A DNA stretch of 23,165 bases from a virus. The notes beneath the pieces were generated by a model. That model was given only the letters and a program-made list of their open reading frames with translations. It ran no database searches and was not told the DNA's origin. Both the position numbers and the translations under genes were made by a program. Where the stretch lies: positions 2,998 to 26,162 of the IMG/VR virus record IMGVR_UViG_3300038534_000064; one strand, given 5' to 3'. Positions 5,597-14,209 of this stretch are shown piece by piece (the stretch's first letter is position 1; every line of letters starts with the position of its first letter).

Positions 5597-6742
5597 TCAG
5601 AACAGGCTGAGCTGATCACCTGCTTTGATTGTGGGTTTCGTGTCTGTAGGTGTTGAGGGTTCATATGCACCGCCCGACCAATGAGCAAGCCTAGCCTCAG
5701 CAATCCTAACATACTCAAGCTCACGCTCAACACCTAGCACATTGAACCCCTCAAGCGCAGCTGCACAGAGTGTGGTGCCTGAGCCTGCAAACGGATCAAG
5801 CACAGTGCCAGCAGGGGGGGTGATAAGCCTGCAGAGATAGCGCATGAGGTCAATAGGCTTTACTGTGGGGTGTATGTTTTTTCTCTGCTCATTGCTCTCA
5901 AGCCCTGCCTCTCTCTCAGCTGTTGAGGCTTTATCACAATAGTAAAACCTTGACTTATTCTTGAGTAGCTTGCGCACAGAATGATCAATCATAACATTTG
6001 AAGGGTGCCTGCCAATCCTATGGTTATATTTGTAATCACTGCCTATTCTGCATGAGCCAACATTTAAAGCGCCTGTACTGTGTTTTATCACGTTGTCAGC
6101 TACTGTGCCTATCAATGGTTTTCTGATTAAAATAATAGGCTCATATGATGGCTTTAAATTGGTGTGCCAATCATCAAATAAAATGGCTCTGTCGCTTGTG
6201 GCTGCTGTGATATTAATAATTGTTTGCGACCTCTCCACATTTTGGCCTGCTTGAGCACACCCATGAGACTTGCCATCTGCCCTTTTACGCGCTGAGCCTC
6301 CGAGCTTTTGCTTACCAATTATTTGGCGCTCGACACCTAAAGAGTCATCAATAGCTTTGCCAATCTCTAATGATTTGGGAAAGCGTGGGCTATAAAGCCA
6401 CACTAGCCTATCCCTCACCTCAAACCCACTTAGCCTAAGTGAGATGCTCATCAAGTCCTCAGTGCGTGAGCCACTAAAAACAAGTCCATGTGCACCAGGT
6501 CTTAACACCCTATAGACCTCACGCCATAGCGCAGGATCAGGCACCCATTTGTCCCATGCTTTACCCATAAAGCCTGATCCTTTTGCGTTATGTGTTGAGC
6601 CACTGAGCCAAGCATTAAGGCACTCAGCCACAGCTTTGGGTGAGGTGTCACCTAGCCCATAGGGTGGATCAGTAACAAGGGCCTCAATGCTATTAGGCTC
6701 AAGCTCTCTGAGCTTCTCAATGCTATCACCATGAATAATCAA
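5597..6742 (-). CDS. DNA methyltransferase (N6-adenine or N4-cytosine, beta-type motif order)
   Basis: 381 residues. The catalytic motif IV D-P-P-Y is at residues 25-28 (LVTDPPYGLG), and the AdoMet-binding motif I, DPFAGSGTT, is near the C-terminus at 317-325, preceded by HPTVKP. Motif IV before motif I is the beta-class order. It methylates an exocyclic amino group of A or C; the recognition site cannot be read. The middle part, about residues 130-280 (bases 5900-6350), looks more AT-rich than the flanking genes and probably holds target recognition. The start overlaps the TerL stop by four bases (ATGA). No cognate endonuclease is adjacent, so protection of phage DNA from host restriction is the likely role. 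Confidence 0.9.
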   Translation of the reverse strand: MIIHGDSIEKLRELEPNSIEALVTDPPYGLGDTSPKAVAECLNAWLSGSTHNAKGSGFMGKAWDKWVPDPALWREVYRVLRPGAHGLVFSGSRTEDLMSISLRLSGFEVRDRLVWLYSPRFPKSLEIGKAIDDSLGVERQIIGKQKLGGSARKRADGKSHGCAQAGQNVERSQTIINITAATSDRAILFDDWHTNLKPSYEPIILIRKPLIGTVADNVIKHSTGALNVGSCRIGSDYKYNHRIGRHPSNVMIDHSVRKLLKNKSRFYYCDKASTAEREAGLESNEQRKNIHPTVKPIDLMRYLCRLITPPAGTVLDPFAGSGTTLCAAALEGFNVLGVERELEYVRIAEARLAHWSGGAYEPSTPTDTKPTIKAGDQLSLF

Positions 6743-8539: not shown

Positions 8540-8750
8540 AGTGCTCACTCAATGCTGTGATAAGTGTTTTCTCAATGTGGGTGTAAAGTGCCCTGCTCTC
8601 AGCGCTGAGCTCCATTTCATCAGCTAACCATAAACGCCTGCGCAGCTCTGCCAATATCTGAAGAGAGGCACCTTGACTCATGCGCGTGTGCGTGTGCGCG
8701 TGCGCGTGCGCGTGTGTGTGCTCAGTTGTTGTTAGTATATCATCAATCAT
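8466..8750 (-). CDS. Small unknown protein with a His-Ala/His-Thr repeat
   Basis: 94 residues from ATG at 8750, whose codon overlaps the stop of the Arg/Glu-rich gene (ATGATTGA). After MIDDILTTTEH comes a run of alternating His-Thr and His-Ala encoded by the alternating purine-pyrimidine tract, then a helical region (ILAELRRRLWLADEMELSAE) and a polar tail that overlaps TerS. The alternative start ATG at 8681 (MSQGASLQ) lacks a ribosome binding site because it directly follows the repeat. The His-rich segment might bind metal; no family is recognised. Position before TerS suggests a packaging-related role, but that is inference. Confidence is moderate because part of the frame overlaps TerS. 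Confidence 0.55.
   Translation of the reverse strand: MIDDILTTTEHTHAHAHAHTHTRMSQGASLQILAELRRRLWLADEMELSAESRALYTHIEKTLITALSEHYGSTQQENRRENRDNPHESQAGHD
8679..8721. repeat. 43-bp alternating purine-pyrimidine tract (Z-DNA-prone)
   Basis: Every base from 8679 to 8721 alternates pyrimidine and purine, a mixture of GC and GT steps built of GTGCGC-like units. Such tracts adopt left-handed Z-DNA under negative supercoiling and change length readily by slippage. It lies at the start of the small gene before TerS. Confidence 0.95.
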
Positions 8751-10685: not shown

Positions 10686-11132
10686 TTAGCGTGTCCATCC
10701 TGTATTTGATGGGTGGGGCTCACCCCATTTCGTCTGAGGCTCAGCAGGGGCAGTGTGCCACTGTGAGGGGGCTGCCACAGGCTCAGGGGGCAGAAACTGA
10801 TCAGAGGTAGCAGGGGCCTCATCTTTGCTGAGGTTGCGCCATACAAGGGCCTTGACCTCAAACAAGCGCTTGCCCTCATACTCAAATGAGCGCAATGAGC
10901 CCTCAACATAGGCCAGGTTACCCTTGCGCAGCTGCTGCACACAGCGATCAGCAGAGGGCCCCCACACCTTTACCGTGTGCCACTCTGTGTCTGTCTGCCA
11001 AACGCCTTGCCTGTCTTTATAGTTCTCATTCGTCGCCATTGTGAATCTGGCGTACTGTTGATTCCCTGCAGCTTTCAGCTCGGGTGCTTGTCCCACGTTG
11101 CCTATCAGCGTGATTCTGTTGATGGATGCCAT
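10686..11132 (-). CDS. ssb: Single-stranded DNA-binding protein
   Basis: 148 residues. The N-terminal 105 residues are a bacterial-type OB fold: NRITLIGNVGQAPELKAAG, ARFTMATNENY, EWHTVKVWG, GNLAYVEGSLRSFEYEGKR. It coats single-stranded DNA during replication and recombination. The tail is Pro-rich and ends N-T-G-W-T-R; the acidic D-D-D-I-P-F-like tip that recruits partner proteins in bacterial SSBs is missing. ATG at 11132 has AGAGGG four bases upstream. The gene's 5' end overlaps the preceding small gene by 107 bases. It acts with the RecT-like protein and the O/P-like pair encoded nearby. Confidence 0.93.
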   Translation of the reverse strand: MASINRITLIGNVGQAPELKAAGNQQYARFTMATNENYKDRQGVWQTDTEWHTVKVWGPSADRCVQQLRKGNLAYVEGSLRSFEYEGKRLFEVKALVWRNLSKDEAPATSDQFLPPEPVAAPSQWHTAPAEPQTKWGEPHPSNTGWTR

Positions 11133-11556: not shown

Positions 11557-11913
11557 TTAAGCACAGGGTGAGCAGGGTTGCAAGTCCTCTAATGCAGGGC
11601 ACTCTTGAAGCGTTTTGAGGATGGGCCCCAAACAGGTGCCACATCTGGCAGCAATGAGGGGGCTATCAGTGTGCACCATGCACCCACGCATATATCTTAG
11701 CCATCGCATGGCCTGCTTGCGTGCCTCATGTCTGATGGTCACAGGTGAGGCCCCATGAAATCGATAATCACCCATCACTGTTTTTTTGTAGTCATCAGTG
11801 AGCAGCTGTAAAAGGGTGGCCTCACAATAGATCACCCTAGGGCCTGTCTCTGTGATAATGGCTGAGTCATAAAATGATCTAGGCTGTAAAAAGTGTTTCA
11901 TCACATGAGCCAT
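11557..11913 (-). CDS. Unknown Cys-rich protein in the replication operon
   Basis: 118 residues from ATG at 11913, which overlaps the helicase-loader stop by 13 bases; ATG at 11901 (MKHFLQPRSF) forms a TGATG junction with that stop and is equally possible. The middle is helical and basic (RHEARKQAMRWLRYMRG). The C-terminus has a cluster of cysteines (RCGTCLGP, ECPALEDLQPCSPCA) that could bind zinc or form a metal site. It is the last gene of the initiator-loader operon, followed by a hairpin. No family is recognised; a replication accessory role is suggested by neighbours only. Confidence 0.7.
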   Translation of the reverse strand: MAHVMKHFLQPRSFYDSAIITETGPRVIYCEATLLQLLTDDYKKTVMGDYRFHGASPVTIRHEARKQAMRWLRYMRGCMVHTDSPLIAARCGTCLGPILKTLQECPALEDLQPCSPCA

Positions 11914-12836
11914 TTCTTGCTGAGAGGTTTAGCTTGTCTTCGATCGCTGCCCACCATCTGCACAGGCTCATCAAACATCTGCACGAGTCGAGACCATGCC
12001 GCATGATTATCAAGCAGCTGTTGAATCTGTGATGGCCTCAGATTGGTGCCCATGATCACTGCGAGCTCACCCGCTGCCCACTTCTCATAAATAGCTTGAA
12101 TCATGGCAACGCTCTGAGACCTAAACCAATCTGTGTGATTACGCCCACCACCTACGCCACCAAACTCATCAAGCAGCAATACATTCACGTTTGTGAGCCA
12201 TCCCTCAAAGGGATCATCTGCCTTGCCATTGAATGACCTCTTGAGCTGATCAAACAGCTGTGTATGTGTAACCCATCTCACTGATAGGTCATTGAACACA
12301 CACCATTTGGCAAAGGCATAGCTCAGTGTGGTTTTGCCGTTGCCAGGTGGCCCCCACATCAAGAGTGATGGCGCGTGGTGCTCAGCCTCTGTGCCTCCAT
12401 AGGTCAGCCACTGCTGAATCTGATTGATCGCAAAACGCTGCTCTGAGCTATCCCACTCATACATGTCAAGGTGTGCGCCCTGTGCATCTGAGGGTAAGTG
12501 CAGATCATTCAAGCGCTTGAGCCTGCGCCTAGGTCGCTCACAGTGCTCACAGAGGTGCACAGCAGATGAGCCATCAGGCTGAGTGATGCGCACCCACCCA
12601 CCCATACACCTGCCACATGGGGGCAGGGGCTTTGCTCGATAGTGCGCAGCACGCTCATAAATGATGCCCTCTGCCTCAAGATTAGCAGGGGTGAGGTGTC
12701 TGAAGTCGAGCAGCTGCGTGGGCTCTGCAATGTTTTGAGGGCGCTCTGCGATTGAGCGCTTTAAGCTGTTAAGCATTTGATTGAGGGCAGGGCTATCACC
12801 TAGCCTCTGCATGTTATCGTGTTTAGAGTTGTTCAT
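11901..12836 (-). CDS. DnaC-like helicase loader (AAA+ ATPase) with a Cys4 zinc motif
   Basis: 311 residues. The ATPase domain has Walker A GPPGNGKTT at residues 162-170 and Walker B LLLDEFGG at 220-227, with an N-x-R sensor region (GTNLRPSQI). This is the DnaC/IstB-type arrangement of loaders that place the replicative helicase at the origin. Before it, Cys74, Cys77, Cys96 and Cys99 (CGRC and CEHC) make a likely zinc site, as seen in some phage and Gram-positive loaders. ATG at 12836 overlaps the initiator stop by 14 bases. Gene order, initiator then loader, mirrors lambda O and P. IstB of a transposon is excluded by the phage context. Confidence 0.85.
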   Translation of the reverse strand: MNNSKHDNMQRLGDSPALNQMLNSLKRSIAERPQNIAEPTQLLDFRHLTPANLEAEGIIYERAAHYRAKPLPPCGRCMGGWVRITQPDGSSAVHLCEHCERPRRRLKRLNDLHLPSDAQGAHLDMYEWDSSEQRFAINQIQQWLTYGGTEAEHHAPSLLMWGPPGNGKTTLSYAFAKWCVFNDLSVRWVTHTQLFDQLKRSFNGKADDPFEGWLTNVNVLLLDEFGGVGGGRNHTDWFRSQSVAMIQAIYEKWAAGELAVIMGTNLRPSQIQQLLDNHAAWSRLVQMFDEPVQMVGSDRRQAKPLSKKWLM

Positions 12837-13566
12837 AATACCCGCCTCTGTGGAGTCTGATGTTTAGATGTTTTCGAGCGACTCTGCAGCGCTCATAAAA
12901 GCCATTACTAAATGAGCAGTGTTTCTCAATGATTGCAATTTGCTCATCAGTGAGCTTGTGCCATTTGTTGAGCCTTGTAGGTGGTGTGTCGTCTGAGGCC
13001 AACTCATCAGTCACACCCTCATAACTAAAATTACTCTCTCTCTCCTCAGCCACAGGCTCAGGTTTAATTGGTTGTGAATTAGGTTGATAATTAGTTGTTA
13101 ATTGTAAGGGTGCAGATTTTGCAGGGGTAGGGGTGCAAATATTGCCACCCTTGGGCTGCAGATTTTGCAGGGGTAGGGGTGCAGATTCTGCAGGTTCGGC
13201 AAGTTTTGCAGGGGGTGCAGCTTTTGCCACTTCGGCAAATTTTGCAGGGGGTGCAAGTTTTGCAGGTTCGGCAAAATCTGCAGGGGTGATGATCTGCGTG
13301 ATGTGCATGCTGATGATGGGCATGGCCTTGCCTGCAGCGCTGCCCCATTTCCTGCTGATGAGGTTGAGGGCCTCAGCCTTTTGCAGGCCATAGCGCACAG
13401 TGCGTGAGCTGATGCCTGCGAGCTGTGCCAGGTCAGCAGCTGTGCAAGGGCCTGCCCATGTCTGCCAATCCACACGCAGCAGCACAGCCATGAGAGTGAG
13501 CTTAGTGCCTGCATTGATATCAGTGCGCCTCATCAGAGCACGCCTCAGATCGTTTTCTGTTGTCAT
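12823..13566 (-). CDS. Replication initiator, lambda O-like in layout, carrying origin iterons
   Basis: 247 residues. Residues about 20-75 form a winged-helix domain (LTLMAVLLRVDWQTW, CTAADLAQLAGISSRTVRYG), as in phage initiators. Residues about 95-152 are a low-complexity stretch rich in P-A-K-x-A-E encoded by the iteron array. The C-terminus (KWHKLTDEQIAIIEKHC...HLNIRLHRGGYY) probably contacts the loader. The upstream in-frame codons to 13605 are read-through of the leader; ATG at 13566 has GGAGGT with an eight- to nine-base spacer. The gene is transcribed from the divergent control region. The low-complexity part is poorly constrained as protein and seems to be kept for its DNA, as in lambda O. 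Confidence 0.85.
   Translation of the reverse strand: MTTENDLRRALMRRTDINAGTKLTLMAVLLRVDWQTWAGPCTAADLAQLAGISSRTVRYGLQKAEALNLISRKWGSAAGKAMPIISMHITQIITPADFAEPAKLAPPAKFAEVAKAAPPAKLAEPAESAPLPLQNLQPKGGNICTPTPAKSAPLQLTTNYQPNSQPIKPEPVAEERESNFSYEGVTDELASDDTPPTRLNKWHKLTDEQIAIIEKHCSFSNGFYERCRVARKHLNIRLHRGGYYEQL
13061..13110. other. AT-rich stretch next to the iterons, candidate DNA unwinding element
   Basis: This 50-base segment is rich in A and T (TTAATTGG, GATAATTAGTTGTTAATTG) and lies immediately downstream, in gene direction, of the nine iterons. Lambda has the same order, iterons then AT-rich region within O. Unwinding here is inferred. Confidence 0.6.
13111..13282. repeat. Nine origin iterons, (T/G)GCA-N5-TGC(A/C)
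   Basis: Thirteen-base palindrome-like units, such as TGCAGATTTTGCA, GGCAAATTTTGCA and TGCAAGTTTTGCA, start at 13111, 13134, 13157, 13180, 13198, 13216, 13234, 13252 and 13270. The first four are spaced 23 bases, the rest 18. The 23-base spacing breaks the reading frame periodicity, so the repeat is kept at DNA level and not as protein. Location inside the initiator gene marks this as the likely replication origin. Confidence 0.88.
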
Positions 13567-13567
13567 A

Positions 13568-13583
13568 TGTTCATTACCTCCTG
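13568..13583 (-). promoter_or_regulatory. Conserved leader CAGGAGGTAATGAACA before the initiator
   Basis: This copy of the early-gene leader has one extra G (GGAGG). ATG follows after one or two bases. It establishes 13566 as the start of the initiator gene. Confidence 0.75.
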
Positions 13584-13589
13584 TGCTCA

Positions 13590-13619
13590 TATATAAGGGG
13601 GTCAAATACAGTCAGTCAA
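13590..13619 (-). promoter_or_regulatory. Candidate sigma70-type promoter of the replication operon
   Basis: On the minus strand TTGACT (13619-13614) is followed after 18 bases by TATATA (13595-13590). The -35 box overlaps the first operator-like repeat, so a repressor bound there would block it. The -10 box lies 24 bases before the initiator start. Boxes were judged by eye. Confidence 0.5.
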
Positions 13620-13655
13620 TATTTTCTTTGATATTGTCAATATTTTCTTTGACAA
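13614..13655. promoter_or_regulatory. Pair of operator-like repeats in the divergent control region
   Basis: GTCAATATTTTCTTTGA occurs exactly at 13615-13631 and 13636-13652, offset by 21 bases or two helical turns. The second copy extends to a perfect dyad TTGTCAA-N8-TTGACAA (13634-13655); the first keeps only the inner TCAA-N8-TTGA. Placement between diverging operons and the dyad form suit a dimeric Cro/CI-like protein, such as the one encoded at 14000-14209. A TTGACA at 13649 could serve the plus strand, with a weak -10. Confidence 0.7.
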
Positions 13656-13715: not shown

Positions 13716-14003
13716 ATGAGCACACAAATTAAATATGATCGACAAGCATATGCAGCGCACAAATCATCAGAGGATCATGCAGAGTCACATTGCACTCACA
13801 TTTATGCAGATGATGTAAATGTTGGCTGCATCATCTCATACACCTCTGAGGGCTTTGTTTCGTATTATCAGGTGATACTCATGCCAGAGCACTGCACACA
13901 CTCAGATGGTGACACTTTCTATGCAGCAAACCATGGCTCTGCACGCAAGGCACTCACAGCAGCAAAGCAATATATCAGAGCCAATATCAAGGGGGCATCA
14001 TGA
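13716..14003 (+). CDS. Small unknown protein, first gene of the plus-strand operon
   Basis: 95 residues, not recognised. It starts MSTQIKYDRQAYAAHKSSED, has mixed alpha/beta character with several aromatic residues (YTSEGFVSYYQVIL), scattered His and Cys (HCTHIY, EHCTHSD) and a helical Ala/Lys-rich end (ARKALTAAKQYIRANIK). No signal peptide or membrane segment is seen. The spaced H-C-T-H pairs might bind metal. Its TGA overlaps the ATG of the Cro-like gene (ATGA), so the two are coupled, and it is the first product from the rightward side of the control region. Confidence 0.75.
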   Translation: MSTQIKYDRQAYAAHKSSEDHAESHCTHIYADDVNVGCIISYTSEGFVSYYQVILMPEHCTHSDGDTFYAANHGSARKALTAAKQYIRANIKGAS

Positions 14004-14209
14004 GCCCTGATAAACGCCAAGCGCTCAAGCGCTTCACTAAACTCAGCACGCTTGCACAAGCAGCAGACATTTCACTCAACTATCTAAGCCTCATCATCAA
14101 TGGCCACAGGTCGGCCTCACCTCAGCTAGCTGAGCGACTCGCAGCAGCTGCCAATGCACTCACCCTACAAACTAACTATTTCACCCCCTCAGATTTCACA
14201 CAGGAGTAA
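14000..14209 (+). CDS. Cro/YdaS-like helix-turn-helix protein
   Basis: 69 residues. A five-helix XRE-type fold fits: SPDKRQALKRF, then TLAQAADISLNYLSLIING as helix-turn-helix, then SPQLAERLAAAANAL. The size matches Cro or YdaS-like repressors without a C-terminal domain. The likely operators are the paired repeats at 13614-13655, between this operon and the replication operon. The start overlaps the previous stop by four bases. Its stop TAA is inside the leader of the next gene. Whether it controls lysogeny or only early timing cannot be told; no CI-like repressor or integrase is in the window. Confidence 0.8.
   Translation: MSPDKRQALKRFTKLSTLAQAADISLNYLSLIINGHRSASPQLAERLAAAANALTLQTNYFTPSDFTQE

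Follow-up and report, generated by a model that had tools for sequence, protein, structure and literature searches.

A probable lambda O-type replication origin with an expanded iteron array inside the initiator gene of an uncultured phage

The initiator gene and its surroundings

The stretch of DNA analysed here, referred to as the window, comprises 23,165 nt of a virus contig of 26,162 bases, a record that may be a fragment. On its minus strand the window carries a gene for an O-like replication initiator (12823-13605), which is listed as 260 amino acids from a TTG codon; an ATG at 13566, placed right after the sequence AGGAGG, is the likely start of translation. The end of this gene is overlapped by a gene for a DnaC-like AAA+ helicase loader (11901-12836, minus strand), which matched phrog_50 (E=6e-26) as well as the IstB and AAA models of Pfam. 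The same replication block contains a single-strand binding protein gene (10686-11132, minus strand; PF00436, E=2.6e-23), and a RecT-like gene is located on the other side of the initiator from the loader and single-strand binding protein genes. A loader gene adjacent to the initiator gene is the arrangement of the lambda O type, and no relationship of this loader to lambda P was detected by the searches made. A second contig (L001/L003) was identical over 8,930 bases except for one mismatch.

Some Streptococcus and Bacillus phages (e.g., Streptococcus phage 315.1) also encode DnaC-like loaders, which were 24-30% identical to the loader of this phage. In contrast, no relative of the initiator was found in the annotated phage collection, lambda O included, or in the genome contig collection. 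The initiator matched the family phrog_345, annotated as "replication initiation O-like," at a modest level (E=8.1e-5), and among eight aligned initiator members five matched phrog_678, which is O-like, and six matched phrog_270, both of which are replication initiation families. The AlphaFold2 model of the initiator predicted, with confidence, a winged helix at residues 14-108, followed by a disordered region at residues 110-211 and a small C-terminal domain at residues 212-259. Viral fold matches of the initiator in BFVD included "replication protein O" and "lambda GpO, N-terminal." The initiator did not match any curated Pfam model of lambda O, and only generic helix-turn-helix models were hit, below the cut-off; searches by sequence for a solved structure yielded only weak matches to generic regulators. 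The predicted N-terminal winged helix is related to that of O by fold and by PHROG family, with sequence similarity that is remote, and we claim membership of the origin type only and not of the Pfam lambda O sequence family.

Three other features of the window were recorded. A 17-mer, GTCAATATTTTCTTTGA, occurs twice in the interval between the divergent initiator and plus-strand genes (13615-13652; starts at 13615 and 13636, 21 bp apart). It is a candidate for an operator, perhaps one bound by the HTH_3 protein encoded at 14000-14209. At 8640-8700 on the minus strand, alternating His-Ala/Thr residues (TEHTHAHAHAHTHTRM) are encoded by a CA/TG-like repeat. A gene for an N6/N4 DNA methyltransferase (5597-6742) adjoins the gene for the terminase large subunit.

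Nine palindromic iterons beside an AT-rich segment

Nine 13-bp imperfect palindromes of the form [T/G]GCA-N5-TGC[A/C] are present at 13111-13282, inside the minus-strand initiator gene. The initial annotation of this DNA had reported nine iterons with two spacings, and both the units and their spacings were recovered at exactly the positions it gave. By rising coordinate, the unit starts (13111 to 13270) are separated by steps of 23, 23, 23, 18, 18, 18, 18, and 18 bp. The core array on the AT-rich side, with 23-bp steps, consists of TGCAGATTTTGCA (13111-13123), TGCAAATATTGCC (13134-13146), and a second copy of TGCAGATTTTGCA (13157-13169), and TGCAGATTCTGCA (13180-13192) forms the junction between the 23-bp and the 18-bp steps. 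The 18-bp, in-frame array continues with GGCAAGTTTTGCA (13198-13210), TGCAGCTTTTGCC (13216-13228), GGCAAATTTTGCA (13234-13246), TGCAAGTTTTGCA (13252-13264), and GGCAAAATCTGCA (13270-13282), the last of which adjoins the part of the gene that codes for the winged helix. Two further matches to the pattern, at 13207 and 13243 (core GGGGG), are overlaps of adjacent iterons. Counts of half-site conservation among the units are partly imposed by the search pattern itself. Open reading frames in other frames over the array (13091-13348, 13098-13514, and 13133-13393) were taken as by-products of the repeats.

The array is far above chance, and the protein sequence does not account for it. First-order Markov simulations of the window gave a maximum of 3 matches per 230 bp, compared with 11 observed. 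Synonymous-codon resampling in which the protein was kept (5,000 trials) gave a maximum of 6 to 7 matches and never reached 11. When the two parts of the array were resampled separately, the 8 matches observed in the 18-bp part were reached in 0 of 20,000 trials, and the 3 matches observed in the 23-bp part were reached in 14 of 20,000 trials.

The initial annotation had argued that the 23-bp spacing shifts the reading frame, such that the DNA is conserved while the protein repeat is not. This argument holds, as the same DNA is read in different frames across the 23-bp steps (PAKSA / LQNLQ / NIC-type). The 18-bp steps remain in frame and encode a 6-residue protein repeat of about AxPAKx. Because the 18-bp steps stay in frame, the DNA-level case for this part of the array rests on the codon test and not on frame. 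The same in-frame repeat, in a linker that is predicted to be disordered, would be expected if the 18-bp part were mainly a protein feature, namely, a Pro/Ala-rich disordered linker grown by tandem duplication, with the DNA site restricted to the 23-bp part; such duplication would carry the DNA motif along for free. We consider this explanation improbable on the basis of the codon test of the 18-bp part, although a recent duplication would also preserve codons, and of two observations in relatives. The linker of one relative (L005) differs in sequence (NIATVANTAPPANIATVANTA) and still retains palindromes at 18 bp, and in more distant genes with unrelated iterons (type T3, below) the 18-bp steps encode unrelated residues (SGESDT).

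An AT-rich segment, presumed to be the DNA unwinding element, is located at 13063-13102; at 78% AT, it is the most AT-rich 40-nt stretch in the gene. It begins about 10 nt past the last iteron, on the C-terminal side, as in O-type origins, and contains the repeated 12-mers GGTTGTGAATTA / GGTTGATAATTA at 13070-13093. The earlier description of an AT-rich segment after the iterons is therefore true in the direction of the gene; on the plus strand, the segment precedes the array. Both the iterons and the AT-rich stretch are encoded within the predicted disordered linker (residues 110-211). In all 17 relatives examined, as in lambda, the 40-nt AT maximum of the gene immediately follows the last iteron, and in a larger set the AT peak followed the last iteron in all complete genes, the exceptions (L058 and L079) being cut by contig ends. 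A promoter and terminator scan around the array revealed no excess over shuffled sequences. The GC-skew plot proposed in the initial annotation was uninformative as an origin marker, with no clear extreme at 13 kb in the window.

Two other roles for such repeats were weighed. Plasmid and lambda iterons can titrate or pair initiators, and extra copies inhibit replication (PMC3349717); on this model, the repeats would constitute an operator or a copy-control (handcuffing) array that restrains replication or the expression of the initiator, and the origin would be at another site. This has only a slim chance of being correct, given that the array lies far downstream of the start codon, that in all complete relatives it borders the peak of AT content in the gene, and that no second array of the motif was found elsewhere in the 23,165-nt window. 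A control role could exist alongside origin function. Iterons beside an AT-rich region are typical of iteron plasmids too (PMC5043065), which would fit an origin of that type, with a Rep_3-like initiator, on a phage-plasmid. The sites in this phage, however, are palindromes within the gene and not direct repeats outside it, and the window contains no exact DnaA box and, near the array, only weak one-mismatch sites. Further, the AlphaFold2 model has a single winged helix, the initiator has no Rep_3 match, and the loader gene comes next. An iteron-plasmid type origin is accordingly the least probable of the explanations considered, with hardly any weight assigned to it.

Iteron types and winged helices among relatives

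Relatives were collected as 48 loci by a loader alignment search and a further 37 by winged-helix searches, with contigs partly shared between the two sets. The initiator of L002/L005 was 71% identical over the best segment. Comparison of spacing in relatives had been suggested earlier as a check, and in this initiator gene the motif is retained and the spacing changes in a similar way (18, 18, 18, 23, 23, 23). Three loci (L004, L007, and L008) had 23-bp steps as far as the contig end, and three others (L011, L013, and L014) had TGCAAAATATGCA-like units at steps of 19, 23, 22, and 23 bp; in more distant relatives, steps of 22-23 bp were retained. More distant genes contained other palindromes, namely, GTTAAC-N5-GTTAAC (T2), GTGTCA-N4-TGACAC (T3), GACAGAATTGGTC (T4), and GTGACAGAAAGTCAC (T5). 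A multi-unit 18-bp short step recurs in T3 genes (18 ... 18, 23, 23, 23, 23), the iteron sequence of which is unrelated to that of this phage. T4 genes are an exception and have in-frame steps only.

Two unusual step patterns were observed. In L073, which is of T3 type, the iterons that were detected are separated by five successive steps of 45 bp and then one of 23 bp, possibly with degenerate units between them. T5-type arrays (L030, L078, and L089) alternate between 23 and 34 bp, forming a 57-bp higher-order unit of 19 residues in frame, and near the AT-rich segment they step 23, 22, 23, and 22 bp.

The winged-helix group agreed with the iteron type in 46 of 46 distinct initiators; because many of these genes are close relatives, the number of independent exchanges is far lower than 46. 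Iteron types were set by the majority of matches, with T4 genes also yielding some loose T3 matches, and L089, which the script motif missed, was grouped by eye. C-terminal ends that were 90-100% identical were found with winged helices that were only 25-46% identical, each accompanied by its own iterons. The last 150 residues of L019 and L020 are identical, while their winged helices are 38% identical and their iterons differ; L030, with a C-terminal identity of 94% to these two, represents a third type. In the T3/T5-type pairs (L035/L044, L059/L078, L025/L029, and L034/L039), shared sequence starts at the border between the last iteron and the AT-rich segment, and in the T4-type pairs (L019/L020 and L024/L030), similarity begins within or just past the AT-rich part. 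L019, L020, L030, L035, L044, L025, and L029 are natural chimaeras, in which near-identical C-terminal halves are combined with three kinds of winged helix and the matching iterons, and their junctions lie at or near the AT-rich segment. No exchange that separated a winged helix from its iterons was seen among the 46 distinct genes. Since the winged helix and the iterons adjoin in one gene, linkage alone could yield part of this co-inheritance. To judge from their sequences, the relatives show that sites and docking domain have been swapped together between viruses.

Comparison with lambda and the proposed origin

The lambda origin within gene O (NC_001416, 39034-39160) has the same layout, with palindromic iterons in the middle of the gene after the N-terminal DNA-binding domain, an AT-rich segment right after the iterons, and the loader gene next. 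Placement of an origin in the initiator gene on the lambda O plan, as originally suggested for this DNA, is well supported by gene context, the AT-rich neighbour, the codon test, the relatives, and the predicted fold. The spacer of the palindrome core is N5 in both phages (CCCTC-N5-GAGGG in lambda and TGCA-N5-TGCA here). The iterons differ from those of lambda in sequence and in number, nine compared with four, as had been noted before; in addition, the 18-bp short step is repeated five times in this phage, and the loader resembles DnaC rather than lambda P. The view that two-part spacing sets this phage apart from lambda was not supported. The lambda iterons, which are 18-bp palindromes, have annotated steps of 20, 24, and 23 bp, short and then long as in this phage, and steps in other O-type genes were 19, 24, 23; 20, 24, 24; 20, 24, 23; and 21, 23. 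In other O-type genes the shorter step is likewise distal and the 23-24-bp steps are on the AT-rich side, and the arrangement is therefore a general trait rather than a peculiarity of this phage. What is distinctive is confined to the number of short steps (five) and their length of 18 bp, both of which recur in relatives with other iterons.

In-gene repeats with steps of 19-21 and then 23-24 bp were present in Escherichia phage Turner, Erwinia phage Midgardsormr38, Providencia phage PSTCR7lys, and Vibrio phage K69, which differ from this phage in iteron sequence; the gene that follows carries a helicase annotation in the Erwinia and Providencia phages. With the same method, Halomonas phage YPHTV-1 yielded no clear array, and Pseudomonas phage BUCT566 yielded only two good units. 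Of the published parallels found, the nearest is that of the Stx lambdoid phages P27 and 933W, which have two extra iterons distal to the AT-rich region and 13 extra O residues (PMC7466680). Expansion of the array is thus in frame and distal, as in this phage, but P27 and 933W have six iterons, of the lambda sequence family. In footprints of these phages, the four AT-proximal iterons were bound efficiently and the two distal ones weakly, yet the distal iterons were needed (PMC7466680).

We consider it highly probable (about 0.9) that this phage uses the array as its replication origin and that the origin follows the lambda O plan. In lambda, dimers of O bind to the palindromic repeats, and an adjoining 40-bp AT-rich region is opened by them (PMC5043065). 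By analogy with lambda (PMC5043065; PMC3349717), the initiator winged helix would bind each palindromic iteron midway in its own gene, presumably as a dimer, and the bound array would wrap or bend the DNA such that the adjoining AT-rich segment (13063-13102) opens. The DnaC-like loader, encoded by the next gene downstream, would then be recruited by the C-terminal domain of the initiator and would load the replicative helicase of the host onto the opened strand. On this model, the conserved core of the origin consists of the four iterons with 23-bp steps beside the AT-rich segment, and the other five, with 18-bp steps, are an in-frame expansion, with six residues of the disordered linker per unit, that would add binding capacity.

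The suggestion that the change from 18-bp to 23-bp steps gives two different initiator assemblies is speculation. On a further reading, the two spacing classes would be functionally distinct, with the fixed 23-bp core wrapping the DNA and melting the AT-rich segment and the expandable, in-frame 18-bp array loading or storing initiator or limiting firing. Iterons of unrelated sequence would share such a division, and phages would exchange it, as one specificity cassette, together with the winged helix. We regard this as rather unlikely.

The lambda O-type origin plan is already known, and this phage carries it with an unusually expanded distal array. The relatives constitute a family of uncultured phages whose origins can be recognised and in which at least five iteron types are paired to winged-helix types. 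This family provides a data set for the recognition code of O-type initiators, as well as material on why AT-proximal iterons keep a step of 22-24 bp while distal ones expand in frame.
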